From contig JAAUPS010000005.1 of NCBI GenBank assembly GCA_012033015.1, positions 1 to 62,727 of the forward strand: a DNA stretch of 62,727 nucleotides. The letters are read 5' to 3'. This document shows positions 15,650 to 35,697 of this stretch, in pieces. This DNA comes from Phormidesmis sp. RL_2_1. Lineage in GTDB: Bacteria > Cyanobacteriota > Cyanobacteriia > Phormidesmidales > Phormidesmidaceae. Both the position numbers and the translations under genes were made by a program. The notes beneath the pieces are model-generated. The model searched no databases and was not told where the DNA came from. It saw only the letters and a list, made by a program, of their open reading frames with translations. The stretch's first letter is position 1, and the number at the start of each line of letters is the position of its first letter.

Positions 15650-18600
15650 ATGTTCACTCAAGTTCGGCCCACTGTCAGGCACATCGTTCCCCAGGATTTG
15701 GGCGATCGCGCCTTGGTTAAGGTGGTGTACGTCGTCCTAGAGCCCCAGTATCAAAGCTCTTTGTCGGCTGCCGTACGTTCTATCAATGACCACAATTCTC
15801 AGCTCGCTGTGGAAATTAGCGGCTACCTCATCGAGGAACTGCGCAGCGAGGAGAACTACGAGGCGTTTAAGCAGGATATTGCTGAGGCCAATATCTTTAT
15901 CGGCTCATTGATTTTTGTCGAAGAGCTTGCCGAAAAAGTAGAAGCGGCAGTCAAGCCCCATCGCGATCGCCTAGATGCAGCCGTGGTTTTTCCCTCCATG
16001 CCTCAAGTCATGCGCCTCAATAAGCTCGGCAGCTTTAATATGGCCCAGTTAGGCCAGTCCAAAAGCGTGATTGGCGACTTTATGAAAAAGCGCCGCAAAA
16101 AGCAAGGCAGCGGCTTTGAAGATGCCATGCTGAAACTACTGCGCACCCTGCCCAAAGTGCTGAAGTACTTACCGGTCGAAAAAGCGCAGGATGCCCGCAA
16201 CTTTATGCTGAGTTTCCAGTATTGGCTCGGTGGATCGGCTGAGAATTTAGAAAACTTCCTGCTGATGCTCTCCGATAAATACGTCCTCCCCGAAAACTAT
16301 GAAGGAACATCTGCAGCGGCATCGCTGAGCTATGAGCAGCCCGTCACCTTTCCAGACATTGGCATCTGGCATCCGCTAGCGCCCGTGATGTTTGAAGATC
16401 TTAAGGAATACCTCAACTGGTACGATTCTCGCAGCGATATTCCTGCGATCGCCCGCAATCCTAAAGCCCCCTGCGTGGGTATCGTACTGCAGCGCACACA
16501 CCTGGTCACCGGCGATGATGCCCACTACGTTTCGATTGTGCAAGAACTAGAGTACAAAGGTGCCAGAGTCATCCCCGTATTTGCAGGCGGGTTGGACTTT
16601 TCTAAACCGGTCGATGCCTATTTCTTTGATCCTTTAAACCCGGCAGAAGCCATTGTCGATTCTGTCGTTTCGCTCACGGGCTTTGCCTTGGTGGGCGGGC
16701 CTGCTCGCCAAGATCATCCCAAAGCCATTGAGGCACTGCAGCGGCTCAACCGCCCTTATATGGTGTCTTTGCCCCTAGTCTTTCAAACCACAGAAGAGTG
16801 GCAAGCCAGTGACCTTGGCCTGCACCCGATTCAAGTGGCCTTGCAAATGGCCATTCCAGAACTAGATGGTGCCATTGAGCCGATTATTATGTCCGGTCGT
16901 GACGGGTCAACCGGTCGAGCCATCACCCTGCAAGATCGGGTCGAAGCCATTTCAACGCGATCGCTCAAATGGGCTCGCCTGCGCAAGCTGCCTCGCGTCG
17001 ATAAAAAGCTAGCCATTACCGTCTTCAGCTTCCCACCGGACAAAGGCAACGTGGGGACAGCCGCCTACCTCAACGTATTTGGCTCCATTTTCCGAGTGAT
17101 GCAAGAGATGAAAGCGCAGGGCTACACCGTTGAAGAACTGCCTGAAACCCCTGAAGCACTCATGCAATGGTGATTCACGATGCCCAAGCGCAGTACAACA
17201 GCCCCAACTTAAACATTGCCCACAAAATGTCGGTCGCCGAGTACGAAGCCCTCACCCCTTATTCTGTTCGATTAGAAGAAAACTGGGGGCCACCTCCAGG
17301 CCAGCTCAATACCGATGGTCAAAATTTGTTGGTGTACGGCAAAACCTTCGGCAATGTGTTTATCGGCGTACAGCCTACCTTTGGCTACGAAGGCGATCCG
17401 ATGCGGCTGCTATTTTCTCGTTCGGCTAGCCCCCACCATGGCTTTGCAGCTTACTACACCTACCTAGAGAAAATCTGGAAAGCAGATGCGGTGTTGCACT
17501 TCGGCACCCATGGCTCTCTCGAATTTATGCCCGGTAAGCAAATGGGGATGAGTGACAAGTGCTACCCCGACAACCTGATTGGCAACACCCCAAATTTGTA
17601 TTACTACGCGGCTAATAATCCTTCTGAGGCGACGATTGCCAAACGGCGCGGCTACGCAGAGATTATCAGCTACCTCACCCCACCAGCAGAAAATGCTGGG
17701 CTGTATAAGGGGCTCAAAGAACTCAGCGAGCTCATTGCCTCCTATCAGACCTTAAAAGACGGTGGTCGAGGCATTCCGATTGTGAATGCGGCGATTGAAA
17801 AAGCGCGGCAGGTCAATCTTGATAAAGACATTGCGCTGCCGGAAGCGTGCGGTGAACTCACCCTAGAGGAGCGCGATACGTTAATCGGCAAGCTCTACAT
17901 TAAGCTGATGGAGATTGAATCTCGCTTGCTGCCTTGCGGATTGCATGTGGTGGGTGAACCACCAACGGCTGAAGAGGCGATCGCAACGTTAGTGAACATC
18001 GCCAGTCTTGACCGGGTAGAAGAAGGTCAAAAAAGCATTCAACGCATCATTGCCGAGAGCATGGGCCGCGATATTAACGAGATTTATCGCAACAGTGATG
18101 TCGGTCAGCTCGAAGATGTTCAAACCCTGTTCGAGATTACTGAAGCGACGCGCGCAGCCGTGCGAGCCATGGTAGAAGAACAGATTAATGACGATGGCCG
18201 AGTATCTGCAAAGTCGATTCTCTCGACGTTTAACTTTGGTGGCAGCAAAGCCGTGTGGACGAAAGCCCTACATGAGCTAGGCTACGACAAAGTTGAAGAC
18301 GAATCCCTGACTTCCCTGTTTGAATATTTGCAATTCTGCCTGAAGCAAGTTGTGGCCGATAACGAGCTAGCGGGTTTGCTCAGCGCCTTAGATGGCGAAT
18401 ATGTCCTTCCTGGCCCCGGTGGGGATCCCATTCGCAACCCGGATGTATTACCAACAGGGAAGAATATTCATGCCCTCGATCCGCAATCGATTCCGACCTC
18501 TGCAGCGGTCGATTCTGCCAAGATCGTAGTGGATCGCTTGATCGCACGGCAAAGAGCTGAAAACGACGGGGCCTACCCTGAGACCATTGCCACCGTGCTG

Positions 18601-19644
18601 TGGGGCACCGATAACATTAAAACCTATGGTGAGTCGTTGGCTCAAATGATGTGGTTTGTAGGCGTCAAACCTGTGCCTGACTCCCTAGGCCGGATGAACA
18701 AGCTTGAGCTGATTGCACTTGAAGATCTCGGTCGTCCTCGCATCGACGTTGTCATCAACTGCTCAGGGGTATTTCGTGATTTGTTTGTCAATCAAATGGC
18801 GCTGTTAGATCGGGCTGTCAAAATGGCGGCTGAAGCAGATGAGCCACTAGAGATGAACTTTGTTCGCAAACACGCCATGGCCCAAGCTGAAGAGTTTGGC
18901 ATCACATTGCGCAATGCGGCAACTCGGATTTTCTCGAATGCATCGGGCTCTTACGCAGCCAATGTCAACTTGGCTGTAGAAAACAGCAGTTGGGAAGAAG
19001 AACAAGAACTACGCGATATGTATTTGGCTAGAAAGTCTTTTTCTTTCAACTGCGATAATCCTGGTGTGATGGATGAGTCTCGTGGTTTGTTAGAGGCCTC
19101 TCTCAAAACAGCCGATGTGACCTTCCAAAACTTAGACTCTTCTGAGATTTCGCTGACAGATGTATCCCATTACTTTGACTCTGATCCGACCAAAGTCGTT
19201 GCGAGTTTGCGAGATGATGGCAAAAAGCCAGCCTCGTTTATTGCCGATACCACCACGGCCAATGCACAGGTGCGATCGCTCTCTGAAACCGTCCGCCTCG
19301 ACGCCCGCACCAAAATGCTCAATCCCAAGTGGTACGAAGGAATGCTCGCCAACGGCTACGAAGGTGTGCGCGAAATCTCCAATCGCCTGGTTAACACCAT
19401 GGGCTGGTCAGCTACAGCAGATGCTGTCGATAACTGGGTGTACGAAGATACCAACGACACCTTCATCAACGATCCTGACATGTGCAAGCGACTGATGGAT
19501 TTAAACCCCAACTCCTTCCGCCGGATGGTGACCACATTGCTAGAAGTGAACGGTCGCGGCTACTGGGAAACCAGCGATGAGAACATCGAGCGCCTGCAGG
19601 AGCTGTACGAAGAAGTCGAGAACCGCATCGAGGGCATTGAATAG
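15650..19644 (+). CDS. chlH: Magnesium chelatase subunit H (ChlH), broken by a one-base frameshift near 17168
   Basis: ORFs 15650-17173 and 17167-19644 together give 507+825 aa, close to full-length ChlH; junction ...[28 protein letters not shown].. is continuous if one base (e.g. G) is restored. Confidence 0.93.
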
Positions 19645-20324: not shown

Positions 20325-20473
20325 ATCATGGTGACTCATCGGTTAGTGAATCGAATGGCAGATCTTTAAAATTGCAGATCTTTACCTCAGCGACCAGAGG
20401 TAAAGACCATGGTCTACTATGGAAAATTGATCCATATAACTTCTATCGGTTTGACGACCCCTGCGCAATAGCT

Positions 20474-21882
20474 ATGAGCAAAGGCACCCTTTTTGACAAA
20501 GTTTGGGACGCACACACCGTCGGCACATTGCCCTCGGGCCAAACCCAGCTCTTTATTGGGCTGCACCTGATTCATGAGGTGACTAGCCCCCAAGCTTTTG
20601 CCATGCTAAACGAACGTAAGCTGAAGGTGATGTATCCACAGCGCACCATCGCCACCGTCGATCACATCGTCCCGACAGAAGATCAGTCCCGGCCCTTTGC
20701 CGATCCGATGGCAGAAAAAATGATGGCGGCATTGGAGGCCAACACCAAAGCCCACGGTATTCGCTTTTTCAATGTGGGCTCTGGCAAGCAAGGCATTGTG
20801 CATGTGATTGCCCCTGAACAAGGGCTGACACAGCCTGGAATGACGATTGCTTGCGGCGATAGTCATACCTCTACCCATGGGGCTTTTGGCGCGATCGCAT
20901 TCGGCATTGGCACCAGCCAAGTACGCGATGTGCTAGCTTCTCAAACCTTAGCCCTGGCCAAACTCAAAGTACGCCGAATCGAAGTCAACGGAGAGCTGCC
21001 CACTGGCGTCTACGCCAAAGACGTAATTTTGCATATCATTCGTAAGCTCGGAGTCAAAGGGGGCGTGGGTTACGCCTACGAATTTGCTGGCAGTGCGATT
21101 GAGAGCCTCTCCATGGAAGGCCGCATGACCTTGTGCAACATGTCGATTGAAGGGGGTGCCCGCTGCGGCTACGTCAATCCCGACCAGGTCACCTACGACT
21201 ATATCAAAGGCCGTCATTTTGCCCCCAAGACCATGCTTGGGAACAGGCCATCACCTGGTGGGACAGCCTACGCAGTGACGCCGATGCTGACTACGACGAC
21301 ATAGTCAAATTCGCTGCCGCCGATATTTCCCCCACGGTGACTTGGGGCATTACACCAGGACAAGGCATTGGGGTCAATGAAACAATTCCCACCCCAGAGA
21401 CCATGCCCGAAGACGAAAGACCGATTGCCGAAGAAGCCTACCGCTACATGCAGCTCTCACCTGGGGCCCAAATCGCAGGCACCAAAATCGACGTGTGCTT
21501 CATTGGTAGCTGCACTAATGGACGCATTAGCGATCTGCGTGAAGCGGCCACCATCGCTCAAGGGCGTCAGGTGGCAGCAGGGGTCAAAGCATTTGTTGTC
21601 CCCGGTTCTGAACAGGTCAAAGCGCAAGCCGAAGCAGAAGGACTCGATCAAATCTTCATTGCGGCTGGCTTTGAATGGCGTGAACCCGGCTGCTCGATGT
21701 GCTTAGCCATGAATCCCGATAAGCTACAGGGCAGCCAGATCAGCGCCTCATCCTCTAACCGCAACTTTAAAGGCAGGCAGGGTTCTGCTTCAGGCCGAAC
21801 CCTGCTCATGAGTCCGGCCATGGTGGTTTCTGCAGCGGTCACAGGCCAAGTCACCGATGTGCGTCAGCTTGCACCCGTTTAA
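20474..21882 (+). CDS. leuC: 3-isopropylmalate dehydratase large subunit, broken by a one-base frameshift near 21230
   Basis: [16 protein letters not shown]...[24 protein letters not shown]; frame change after [10 protein letters not shown], continues [26 protein letters not shown]...[10 protein letters not shown]...[10 protein letters not shown]. Confidence 0.93.
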
Positions 21883-27040: not shown

Positions 27041-27835
27041 ATGGCAGACAATCCATACCCTGAGCAAATTGATGCATTAGATCTAGGCTCGGAGCAAAAG
27101 CATTATTTAACAGAGCGCTGGCTCGATCAGTATGCTTGGTTTGAAAAGCGAGCGGGCACTATGCAAAAGTGGTATCGCCGCCTGCGGCTGATTGTAGTCG
27201 TTGGTGGTGTGCTGATTCCTGGCCTAATAGCTTTTAGGTTTCCGGAGAATGAAGGCACCCAAGCGCTGCTAGAACCTGAACCCAATGGCACGGAAATGGC
27301 AATGGTGCAGTTGGTGGCGACTAGCCCATGGAGTTGGCTGAGCGATCCTGATGAGGTGAAAAACTTTTTTGTTTTTATCATCAGTTTAGTCGTGGCCGTA
27401 GCCGCTGCGATTGAAGAATTTTTTAACTTTGGTGAAAAGCATCGTAACTATCGCAAAGCGGCCGAACAGATGAAAGGAGAGTACTGGAAATTTACGCAGC
27501 TTTCCGGCCCCTACAGCAAATATCAAACAGACACAGCAGACTATCCTACCGCTTTGAAGTCAGCCTACCTATCTTTTGTACAGCGAATAGAACAAATCAT
27601 AGAAGATGACGTGAGCAGCTTTATCACGCTAGCAGATGAGCAGCTCGCTGAAGACAATCGCCAAATTCAAAAGACCCTGCAAGAGACGCAGCAGGCCGTA
27701 GATAAGCTGAATCACGAGCTGAATCGGGTGACGCTGCAGATGCAGGCGATCGCACCACCGCTGGAACCCGAGACAGAGGCACAGCCTATCTCTGAGGAGA
27801 CTTCTGGCATAATCGCCGCCCCTCCAAACCCATAG
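27041..27835 (+). CDS. DUF4231 (SLATT-like) two-TM protein
   Basis: YLTERWLDQYAWFEKRAGTMQKWYRRLRLIVVVGGVLIPGLIAF...FFVFIISLVVAVAAAIEEFFNFGEKHRNYRKAAEQMKGEYWKFTQLSGPY. Confidence 0.75.
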   Translation: MADNPYPEQIDALDLGSEQKHYLTERWLDQYAWFEKRAGTMQKWYRRLRLIVVVGGVLIPGLIAFRFPENEGTQALLEPEPNGTEMAMVQLVATSPWSWLSDPDEVKNFFVFIISLVVAVAAAIEEFFNFGEKHRNYRKAAEQMKGEYWKFTQLSGPYSKYQTDTADYPTALKSAYLSFVQRIEQIIEDDVSSFITLADEQLAEDNRQIQKTLQETQQAVDKLNHELNRVTLQMQAIAPPLEPETEAQPISEETSGIIAAPPNP

Positions 27836-27969
27836 CTTTGATCGCTTGGCTGAGGTACAGCATGTTGGCTGAAACCATGACGTGACAACGGGCCAAGCAA
27901 TGCGCGTATGCCGGATGCATCCTTACGTTGTCTAGGTGAGCATTCCTTCTTGTTTCCTTACGCCCTCGG

Positions 27970-29348
27970 TTACATCGAGCGTTCTTGAGATTCAGCCCAT
28001 GTCAACTGTTTTTTCCATGCCGGCAGATTGTCCTTCGCCTGTTGATACTTTTTTCTGTCACTGCCCTCAATTTCTGCAGGAATGTTGTCAGGGGCATTTT
28101 CCAGCAGCGCAATGCCCCTGCGCCATGAGGTAGCCGATTGCTTCCAATCAGCCGGATTGTTACTTTGAGCTGCTGTCTTGGCAAATTCTGTGGCACACAC
28201 TGCTTTTTGGATGGCATAGTACCAAGGACTATGGCGATGATATTTTGTTGCCCAATAGAGCGCTGTTTCGTAGTTTTGCTGATTGGCCAGCACTTGATCG
28301 TGAAAGCTAACCGTTGGCTCAACTGCGTTGAGGCGATCGAGCGATCGCTGACGCATCTCTAAAATATGCTTCCATTCTGCTGGTGTATCGGCAAACGTCG
28401 CCTCTGGATTGCATTGTTTTTGTTTGCCTGCAGGCGTTTTTGGATTGGGCTGCTGATCTAAGAAAAAGCTTTTCTGTAGTCATACATCGCAGAGGTAAAG
28501 ACTTGACGATTCGTATATTCAAGGTGTCGGTTTTGCACTCGGAGGCGCAGGGGGAGATAATCGCGGTTGTTGTCGAGCATCACCTTGAGGGGAGCGGCAG
28601 CATTTTCCCAAAGTTCTTCAATGCGCCGCCACTGCCGATCAGATTTAACGCTATCCCAAGGTTGGGCATTGGCTTGCACGGTGAGTTCTAATGCCTCAAC
28701 TTCAATGTCTTCGGCTGTAGATAATGCTGCCTGCACGTCTTCGCGTTGGAGTACCTGTGGTGGCGGCGGCTGAGGCGGTACGCATCCTCGCAAAGATGCG
28801 ATCGCTAGAGCCACAGCAACCGCCCCTAAGCCAACAAAAGCAAGGCTTCTTCTGCGCTTTTCAGCCAAGCCTCGATCTGGTATGCGGCCTGGGCCGCCGC
28901 TTGCTCTACTCGCTGTACTTGCCTTTTCAGGTGCGATCGCAGGATCCCTAGCAGGACTACCTTTAACACCCAAATTCTTCAGCAGTAACGGAAAACCCGC
29001 CTCGAAGTCCGCCGACAAATCAACATATTGCAGCCTTCTGAGGCGAAACGGAATCTCACATTTGCCACACAAGACCGGAATCACCTGCTTCGATTCGTCC
29101 AGCGCATAGGACACCTCATCCATCACATTGTCAGAGTCAACGGAGGTTTTCGATAGCAGTACCATCAACCCTTGGGATGATTTCAAAGCAGCCTGAACGG
29201 CTTTATCCCAGCGATCGCCAGCCGGAATATCGAGCTGATCTATCCATAGGTTCACCCCTTCAGCGCGTAACCGCTCCGCTAGCTTTAGGGCAAATGCCTC
29301 ATCCGCCCGAGAATAGCTTACAAAGTAGGTCAGCGGTGCCGATGCCAT
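27970..29348 (-). CDS. TIR-domain protein with TM segment and helical C-terminal region, one-base frameshift near 28465
   Basis: N-terminal TIR YFVSYSRADEAFALKLAERLRAEGVNLWIDQLDIPAGDRWDKAVQAALKSSQGLMVLLSKTSVDSDNVMDEVSYAL; TM LAFVGLGAVAVALAIASL; ...YDYRKAF then +1 frame FLDQQPNPKTPAGKQKQCNPEATFADTPAEWKHILEMRQRSL... to 27970. Confidence 0.8.
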
Positions 29349-29620
29349 TGCTCTAAGATTGATAATCCAACTGATGGTTCAACTGGTAGTTCAACTGATC
29401 TTCAAGGACACCCAACCATTCAGCCCAGCCATTTGGCCCAGCCATTTGGCCCAATCATTCGGCCCAACCATTCGGCTATAAGGCCCAGACAGAGCGGCTC
29501 AATTCCACCTAGGCCCCAATATCCAATATCTAGGGCAATTTTACGCTAGATCGGTGTAAGCTATGGGCACTTCAGCCCTCACTGTTTGATCTCTTTACCT
29601 CTGGTTGATGTTTGAGCGCT

Positions 29621-30553
29621 ATGAATGAGCTTCTCCTCGCCGTTTATATTTTGGTTGTGCTCTATGTCTTGTATCAAATGGCACTGTCTTTAGAAAAGCA
29701 ACAAGAAGCCAAGGTCATTATTGGTTTAGACGAAGCATTTTTAGAAGAGCAAACAGTTCGTCAGCTTTCTATGCAACCCGGCGCTAGAAACATTCGTGCC
29801 AAAGTGGAGAAGGTGGGATTTGGGAAAAACAAATTCTCGGTGCTGGCCTTTACCTTTGAGCAAGCCCCGCCCATTCCCATCCCCCCTAAAGATTTGGAAA
29901 AATGGGAAAAAGATGGCATGACGCCGCAGCAGGTGAGCCAGAGAAATCAAGAATGGAGTAAAGAAAGAATTTCAATTCAGGTACTCCCCGTTGGCGAAAA
30001 AAAAGCTGTCCTGATTCCTTTTTTGTCAATTGATGTGAAAAACAAAACGCGCGATCTTCAAATTCATCTCGATTGGGACTACAGCTCAATCGAGATGTTC
30101 GGGCAGGGCAATCGAGTCATTCGCTCAACTTCAAATACCTTTAGAGATTTATCCCAGCCTCAAATCTTTGGTACCGTCAACCCCAATAGAGTAGTGCGCT
30201 TCGATGTCAATATTGAAAGAAACTATACCCGCGATCCACAAACGAACCAGCTTAAGCAACCCATGCCCTTGGCTAACTTGGAGCAAAGGCTAGCATCAGC
30301 CAAGCTCACCGACCCCACCTCTACCGAAAAAAATATCGAACCCCTGTATGGCCTAGATCTGATGGTGAGAATCAAAGGCACCGCTGAGCCCGACAACAAA
30401 ATGATCAATTTGCTTGTGCCCTTTGCCTTCAACTTAGAAATTAAGGTCGATCCACCGGCTTTTCCGCCGTTACGTTGGTTCCTACGAGTCTTTGGGGCCA
30501 ATCGGGAAAAGGGCAGTTGGCTGTGGGGAACGACCAAAGAAGGCGCGCAGTAA
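29621..30553 (+). CDS. Hypothetical membrane-anchored protein
   Basis: N-terminal TM ELLLAVYILVVLYVLYQMAL; no family recognised. Confidence 0.5.
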   Translation: MNELLLAVYILVVLYVLYQMALSLEKQQEAKVIIGLDEAFLEEQTVRQLSMQPGARNIRAKVEKVGFGKNKFSVLAFTFEQAPPIPIPPKDLEKWEKDGMTPQQVSQRNQEWSKERISIQVLPVGEKKAVLIPFLSIDVKNKTRDLQIHLDWDYSSIEMFGQGNRVIRSTSNTFRDLSQPQIFGTVNPNRVVRFDVNIERNYTRDPQTNQLKQPMPLANLEQRLASAKLTDPTSTEKNIEPLYGLDLMVRIKGTAEPDNKMINLLVPFAFNLEIKVDPPAFPPLRWFLRVFGANREKGSWLWGTTKEGAQ

Positions 30554-34246: not shown

Positions 34247-35697
34247 ATGGCTTCAGTTTCACCCTCTTCCTTTGTCGGCAAAGATATTAAATTTGGGACG
34301 GATGGCTGGCGAGGTATTATCGCGGCTGATTTTACCTTTGAGCGTGTAGGCAAGGTAGCAGCTTTGGCAGCGCAGGTGTTGGAGGAAACCTACGGCAGCA
34401 ATCGTGGTAAAACGGTGATTGTCGGCTACGATCGGCGGTTTTTGTCGGCTGATTTTGCCCGGTATGCAGCAGAGGCGATCGCCGCTGCCGGATATGAGGT
34501 GAAGCTATCTGAATGCTTTGCGCCGACGCCTGCTTTTAGCTGGGCAGCATTCGACCAAAAGGCATTAGGCGCTATCGTGATTACAGCGAGCCATAACCCT
34601 GCTGCCTACAACGGACTCAAGATCAAAAGTGCTTTGGGAGGCTCAGTCCCCCCTGAGGTCACTGAAAAGGTAGAAGCAAAGCTAGATCAGCCCCGGCCCC
34701 AAGCGGATACCCCTGGTAGTATTACCCTGTTTGACCCTTGGCCGAGCTATTGCACGGCGTTGCAGTCCATGGTGGATATTGAAGCGATTCGCTCAGCCGT
34801 GAGTGATGGCAAGCTGACGGTGTTTGCCGAGGTGATGCATGGCGCGGCAGCGACGGGGTTACGCAGGCTGCTAGAGCAAGAAATTTATGAAATCAATGGG
34901 GAGGCCGATCCACTGTTTGAAGGGGGCGCACCTGAGCCATTGCCAAACTATATTCCCAAGCTGTTTGAGGCGATCAAAAATAAGACAAATAGTGGCCTGA
35001 CGGTAGGGCTCATCTTTGATGGCGATTGCGATCGCATTGCCGGGATGATGGTAGGGCTAATTTCCTCAGCTCCCAAGTGCTCATTCCCATTTTGATGGAG
35101 CATTTGACTCAGCGCCGGGGGATGAGTGGGGAAGTGGTCAAAACCATTAGCGGCTCCAACCTATTTCCGGCCCTAGCAAAACTGTACGGCCTACCTCTCT
35201 ACGAAACGCCAATTGGCTATAAATATATCGCCGATCGCATGTTGGAAACTCAGGTGCTGATTGGCGGTGAAGAGTCGGGTGGCATTGGCTATGGCCACCA
35301 TATTCCTGAGCGAGATGCGCTGCTATCGGCGCTGTACTTATTAGAAGCTGTGGTGAAAAGCGGTCAGGACTTTGGCGAACTCAATGACTCGCTGCGATCA
35401 CAAACGGGCTTTAGCTCCGCCTATGACCGGATTGATTTGCCGTTGGCCAGCATGGACGTGCGCGCCAAGCTATTAGACGCGCTGCAATCGAGTACGCCGC
35501 ATGACGTCGCGGGTAAACCGGTCACCAACTGTCTCACCATTGACGGCTATAAATTCAATTTAGCGGACGATAGCTGGCTCCTGATTCGCTTTAGCGGAAC
35601 AGAGCCCGTGCTGCGGCTATATTCTGAAGCAGCAACCATAGAGCAGGTACATGAGATTTTAGCTTGGGCCAAAGACTGGGCGACCTCGGTAGGCTAG
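34247..35697 (+). CDS. Phosphoglucomutase/phosphomannomutase, one-base frameshift near 35047
   Basis: KFGTDGWRGIIAADFT, TASHNPAAYNGLKIKS, FDGDCDRIAGM then frame change to DGRANFLSSQVLIPILMEHL... ETPIGYKYIADRML. Confidence 0.9.

Follow-up and report, generated by a model that had tools for sequence, protein, structure and literature searches.

A gene of the DUF4231/SLATT family and a gene for a membrane-anchored TIR protein lie tail to tail on the chromosome of the cyanobacterium Phormidesmis sp. RL_2_1, and we tentatively read the pair as a pared-down cyanobacterial TIR-SLATT death module without an LSDAT (TRPM-type SLOG) gene. This reading draws on the intact TIR fold with a glutamate (E78) at the putative catalytic position, the two transmembrane (TM) helices of the DUF4231 protein, the association of the two families in cyanobacteria, the adjacency of the genes in their own genome, and the published literature on TIR-SLATT neighborhoods. 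The window analyzed here is a stretch of 62,727 nucleotides of contig JAAUPS010000005.1 (source contig C170), from a genome of 5.56 Mb in 436 contigs with a completeness of 95.7% and a contamination of 7.0%.

The DUF4231/SLATT gene occupies positions 27041 to 27835 of the forward strand and encodes 264 amino acids arranged as an N-terminal helix, two TM helices, a coiled-coil helix, and a disordered proline-rich tail. Burroughs et al. are said to have named SLATT in 2015 after its SMODS and SLOG partners. The protein exceeds the curated cut-offs of both Pfam DUF4231 (E = 4.5e-25, 88.5 bits versus 24.7) and NCBIfam SLATT_1 (89.5 bits versus 41), and its two TM helices are followed by a long helix, bearing out the initial annotation of a two-TM DUF4231 gene. 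TM helix 1 (residues 50-68; 27188 to 27244; hydropathy 2.12) lies inside the predicted helix 17-64, and TM helix 2 (residues 106-124; 27356 to 27412; hydropathy 2.41) ends in a conserved AxEEFF motif, with V118, A119, A123, E125, E126, F128, and G131 forming conserved columns around it. The AlphaFold2 model (pLDDT 80.8) has helices at residues 17-64, 103-155, and 168-237 and yielded no significant fold match in the PDB. For the pair, the PADLOC hits were limited to TIR models of a generic kind and to SLATT, the latter weakly. The closest relative of the DUF4231 protein is in Leptolyngbya sp. BC1307 (G058), and the two form one clade with a long stem. SLATT proteins have been predicted to be membrane effectors that answer ADPr-derivative signals (PMC9503650). 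That they open pores upon a nucleotide signal is likewise a literature prediction for the family.

The TIR gene lies on the reverse strand (28458 to 29348) and has an open frame of 296 amino acids comprising a TIR domain, a linker, one TM helix, and the beginning of a helical stalk. The TIR domain (residues 9-122; 28983 to 29324, reverse strand) matches TIR_2 with E = 3.6e-29. The predicted structure is a confident TIR fold, with pLDDT mostly >90 across residues 1-126, that reaches TM-scores of up to 0.87 (target length) against solved TIR domains; the nearest structures include the TIRs of Hydra TRR-2, SPARTA, and SARM1. In alignments, E78 (codon at 29115 to 29117, reverse strand) falls in the 'xxE' column where cyanobacterial TIRs have their conserved glutamate, and it also lines up with that of the CRISPR effector Cat1; we take this to be the catalytic position established for SARM1-like TIRs. 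The residue on which the earlier proposal had been staked beforehand is thus present, and with both the fold and the glutamate in place the protein may be an NAD+-cleaving enzyme. Its single TM helix (residues 168-186; 28791 to 28847, reverse strand; hydropathy 2.29; predicted helix 168-185), which agrees with the earlier description of a TIR protein with a TM segment, is preceded by KRRRS, and by the positive-inside rule the N-terminus is probably cytoplasmic. Short degenerate direct repeats (CCCAACCATTCGGC-like) are found upstream of the gene, at 29411-29476 of the window.

The initial annotation had also described a single TIR-TM-helical protein, and on this point the reading frames contradict it. 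The TIR frame stops at 28458 to 28460 after 296 residues, and the frame that is open through the helical part (27970 to 28476, reverse strand) is another one, with its upstream stop at about 28480; the break region between the two frames (28458 to 28476, reverse strand) contains short homopolymer runs. The C-terminal part is similar to helical repeats found in other cyanobacterial proteins (best match 6.5e-7); the stalk of the TIR protein weakly matches the profile of these repeats, with hits at about 3e-5 to two of those proteins. This shared sequence similarity suggests that the TIR part and the helical C-terminus were once joined. The C-terminus had gone unrecognized in the initial annotation, which holds for Pfam, where no credible match was obtained (DUF3500 fell below the cut-off), but not for its similarity to these repeats. 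Three of the four repeat-sharing proteins are likewise without a Pfam match, and the fourth matches DUF1574/GDSL only. An exact count of repeats (R1, R2, and R3 across stalk and C-terminus) was dropped because the pairwise scores were weak (best p = 0.04). In the proteins inspected (L062, L080, L081, and L064), a membrane anchor or lipoprotein-like leader stands before the repeats, which, in agreement with KRRRS before the TM helix, places the helical-repeat C-terminus probably outside the cytoplasm.

Several other genes of this contig are interrupted in the same manner. Those for a chlH-type Mg-chelatase (window 15650-19644), a leuC-like aconitase (20372-21882), and a phosphoglucomutase (34247-35697) are each split over two frames, and the chlH open frame is 516 aa long in the window versus an intact 1337-1373 aa in six of six congeners. 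A genuine break in a gene essential for photosynthesis would be surprising, so the chlH break is better explained by indel errors in the contig, and the break in the TIR gene is, by the same token, probably an assembly indel rather than decay. If it were real, the TIR-TM part would stay translatable without the outer domain.

The two genes converge across a gap of 134 bp (27836 to 27969) between positions 27835 and 27970, in keeping with the tail-to-tail layout noted earlier, and as convergent genes they are not part of one transcript. A shared terminator in the gap was considered and rejected, since no terminator-like site is listed inside it and site counts equal those of a shuffled control. 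The pair is adjoined by metG and by an open reading frame for an uncharacterized 313-aa protein (window 29612-30553). The latter is kept in all six congeners, lies upstream of rnc in the compared loci, and has no Pfam match. Both flanking blocks, metG and the 29612 ORF-rnc block, are conserved but far apart where they occur on one contig (G058 and G057), with 116 kb between them in G058, suggesting that the pair's spot is a rearranged junction. In the genome G055, the region upstream of metG holds, by inspection, a restriction-like gene and one for a methyltransferase. A foreign composition of the pair was rejected, as GC content ranges from 0.46 to 0.56 over 22-34 kb with no step at the pair, as was a viral origin, the viral contig collection containing no relative of the window DUF4231. 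Across its 5.56 Mb the genome encodes a single DUF4231 protein and three TIR domains, one of which is nevertheless encoded next to the DUF4231 gene (chance about 0.0016), and with so few copies the adjacency is unlikely to be accidental.

Conservation of this particular pair is limited. Of the six congeners, G058 alone carries the DUF4231 gene (about 59% overall, 66-68% over the domain), and no TIR or LSDAT gene was found near it in a 19-kb neighborhood (about 9 kb around); by inspection, hsdM-, hsdS-, and hsdR-like genes lie just upstream. The G058 gene lies about 170 bp behind hsdR of this type I R-M locus (L060:566-9738). The TIR protein has no close relative in the six congeners and no full-length relative in 291 genomes of the class, where matches cover the TIR domain and at most the TM region. 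A genome-wide search of the window's genome for LSDAT (PF18171) gave no match; at 95.7% completeness, a missed copy is possible but unlikely. The co-conservation on which the initial annotation had made its proposal depend therefore fails for the window pair and its orthologues, and it is seen at the level of the families, in 17 of 32 clusters.

These clusters come from two sources. An order-level set of 21 DUF4231 loci was chosen by DUF4231 similarity alone, and nine of them lie within 5 kb of a TIR gene. Scanning genome contigs with a query alignment in which some loci were known beforehand to neighbor TIR genes gave 79 DUF4231 loci, and these together with the order-level loci form the 32 clusters at 70% identity. 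Within 5 kb, TIR genes are present in 17 clusters and LSDAT genes in 18; one or the other is found in 26, both in one locus in eight, and neither in six. The TIR background, 2.31 domains per Mb, comes from 64 genomes belonging to the order, none of them Nostocales, and leads to an expectation of about 3% per 15 kb, and the association has a P of about 1e-6 even at fivefold TIR density. In eight clusters the TIR gene is on the same strand within 350 bp of DUF4231, and the convergent arrangement of the window recurs in only one other locus (L189). A TM helix follows the TIR part in 22 of 32 partner TIR proteins, and one scanned partner has an extracytoplasmic-type CHASE2 sensor, suggesting the same plan as in the window TIR protein. 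In three loci (L124, L133, and L135) the genes share a strand in the order LSDAT-DUF4231-TIR; in L124 and L135 the TIR is followed by WD40 repeats, and L133 is cut off by the end of its contig. Measured against them, the window has the TIR gene within 5 kb and no LSDAT/SLOG gene nearby. In many Nostocales loci (L183-L220) an LSDAT gene is directly upstream of DUF4231, some with a TIR gene downstream.

The strongest new lead comes from loci other than the window pair. DUF4231 is fused to peptidoglycan-active domains (GH19-like, phage lysozyme, or C39) in 10 of 32 clusters, and an M15-type peptidase gene is often near the fusion genes; no description of such fusions was found in the literature searched. 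They suggest a lysis output, and the loci are possible TIR-triggered self-lysis cassettes. The fused domains are C-terminal in proteins of 460-800 aa (L116, L117, L119, L146, L159, L178, L190, and others), and several of the genes have neighbors encoding an M15 peptidase and a multi-TIR protein. Five tandem TIR domains are encoded in L117 (5520-10061), L119, L120, and L121, divergent to a DUF4231-GH19 gene; in L117, the one scanned, a CHASE2 sensor domain follows the five TIRs.

Most simply, the window pair can be read as the published TIR-SLATT scheme minus its separate SLOG sensor. A TIR enzyme anchored in the membrane, its TIR domain facing the cytoplasm and its helical-repeat part lying outside, would respond to a cue from infection or envelope stress by cleaving NAD+ to produce an ADP-ribose-type signal. 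In response, the two-TM DUF4231 protein would oligomerize in the membrane and permeabilize it, which, following the published SLATT prediction, would kill or arrest the cell. The immunity role and NAD signaling first proposed for the pair may apply to it. If the scheme is true, TIR-SLATT signaling extends to cyanobacterial chromosomes, and a receptor-like TIR protein could connect membrane killing with a cue from outside.

Our preference for a pared-down module stays tentative because several observations weaken it: the genes are convergent, no LSDAT gene was found in the genome and no orthologue of the full TIR protein in the genomes searched, the TIR gene is frame-broken as sequenced, and such genes also cluster in islands without partnership. 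It is quite conceivable that two independent genes share one variable spot, the TIR protein being a lone NAD-consuming effector and the DUF4231 protein acting alone or with another system. Their separate upstream regions would fit this, as would the closest DUF4231 relative, which stands beside hsdR of a type I R-M locus without a TIR or LSDAT gene, the rearranged junction between the metG and rnc blocks, and the restriction-like gene and methyltransferase of G055. Independence is harder to reconcile with the adjacency of the genome's only DUF4231 gene to one of just three TIR domains, and with the strong family-level association across many clades.

A decaying TIR pseudogene, leaving no working module at the locus, is improbable: decay would account for the break after residue 296 and for the shifted frame of the C-terminus, but chlH, intact in the congeners, is broken in this contig as well and the leuC-like and phosphoglucomutase genes are split too, pointing to contig indel errors, and the TIR domain, E78, and the TM helix are undamaged. 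We give similarly little weight to membrane-stress or developmental cell-death signaling in place of phage defense, in which the TIR protein would sense the state of the envelope and DUF4231 would execute. The receptor-like topology of the TIR protein and the related loci with a CHASE2 sensor and peptidoglycan-cutting domains are in its favor, whereas the literature ties the TIR and SLATT families mostly to conflict systems (PMC9503650, PMC7159879). On balance, we regard the window pair as probably real, though only a modest variation on the TIR-SLATT theme.

TIR-SLATT neighborhoods have already been described in firmicute phages (PMC9503650), and SLATT genes accompany TIR effectors in GTPase-centered systems (PMC7159879). 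The window pair resembles the phage pairs in having a TIR gene beside a two-TM SLATT gene, and differs from them in being chromosomal, cyanobacterial, and convergent, with a TIR protein that has its own TM helix and a helical-repeat part. A two-TM SLATT protein is also shared with the RTasSLATT/DRT reverse-transcriptase systems; however, no reverse transcriptase was found beside the window DUF4231, and the match is weak (E = 0.001). In Thoeris, the SLOG domain of type I ThsA reads the TIR product, and type II ThsA responds via a macrodomain (PMC12948488). The combination of a TIR enzyme with a second protein as effector recalls ThsA/ThsB, but no SIR2, SLOG, or macrodomain protein, and hence no ThsA-type effector, lies beside the pair, and the window TIR matches the ThsB and ThcB4 models weakly, ThcB4 far below the cut-off. 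The cyanobacterial LSDAT(SLOG)-DUF4231(-TIR-WD40) loci (L124, L133, L135, and others) share with the window the same DUF4231 family and a TIR protein with a TM helix; unlike the window pair, they have LSDAT and operon order. TRPM2 joins an LSDAT-type domain to an ADP-ribose-gated channel. A rather unlikely reading, by analogy, would make these loci a split TRPM2, in which the TIR protein makes an ADP-ribose-type signal, LSDAT senses it, and the two-TM DUF4231 protein acts on the membrane; the lysozyme, GH19, or C39 domains fused to DUF4231 in many species would turn it into a self-lysis device. The window pair would then be a stripped two-gene version, in which DUF4231 receives its signal from the membrane TIR protein with no LSDAT in between. 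This comparison set is more interesting than the window pair itself, since the LSDAT-DUF4231-TIR operons would offer a directly testable bacterial counterpart of ADP-ribose-gated TRPM channels.
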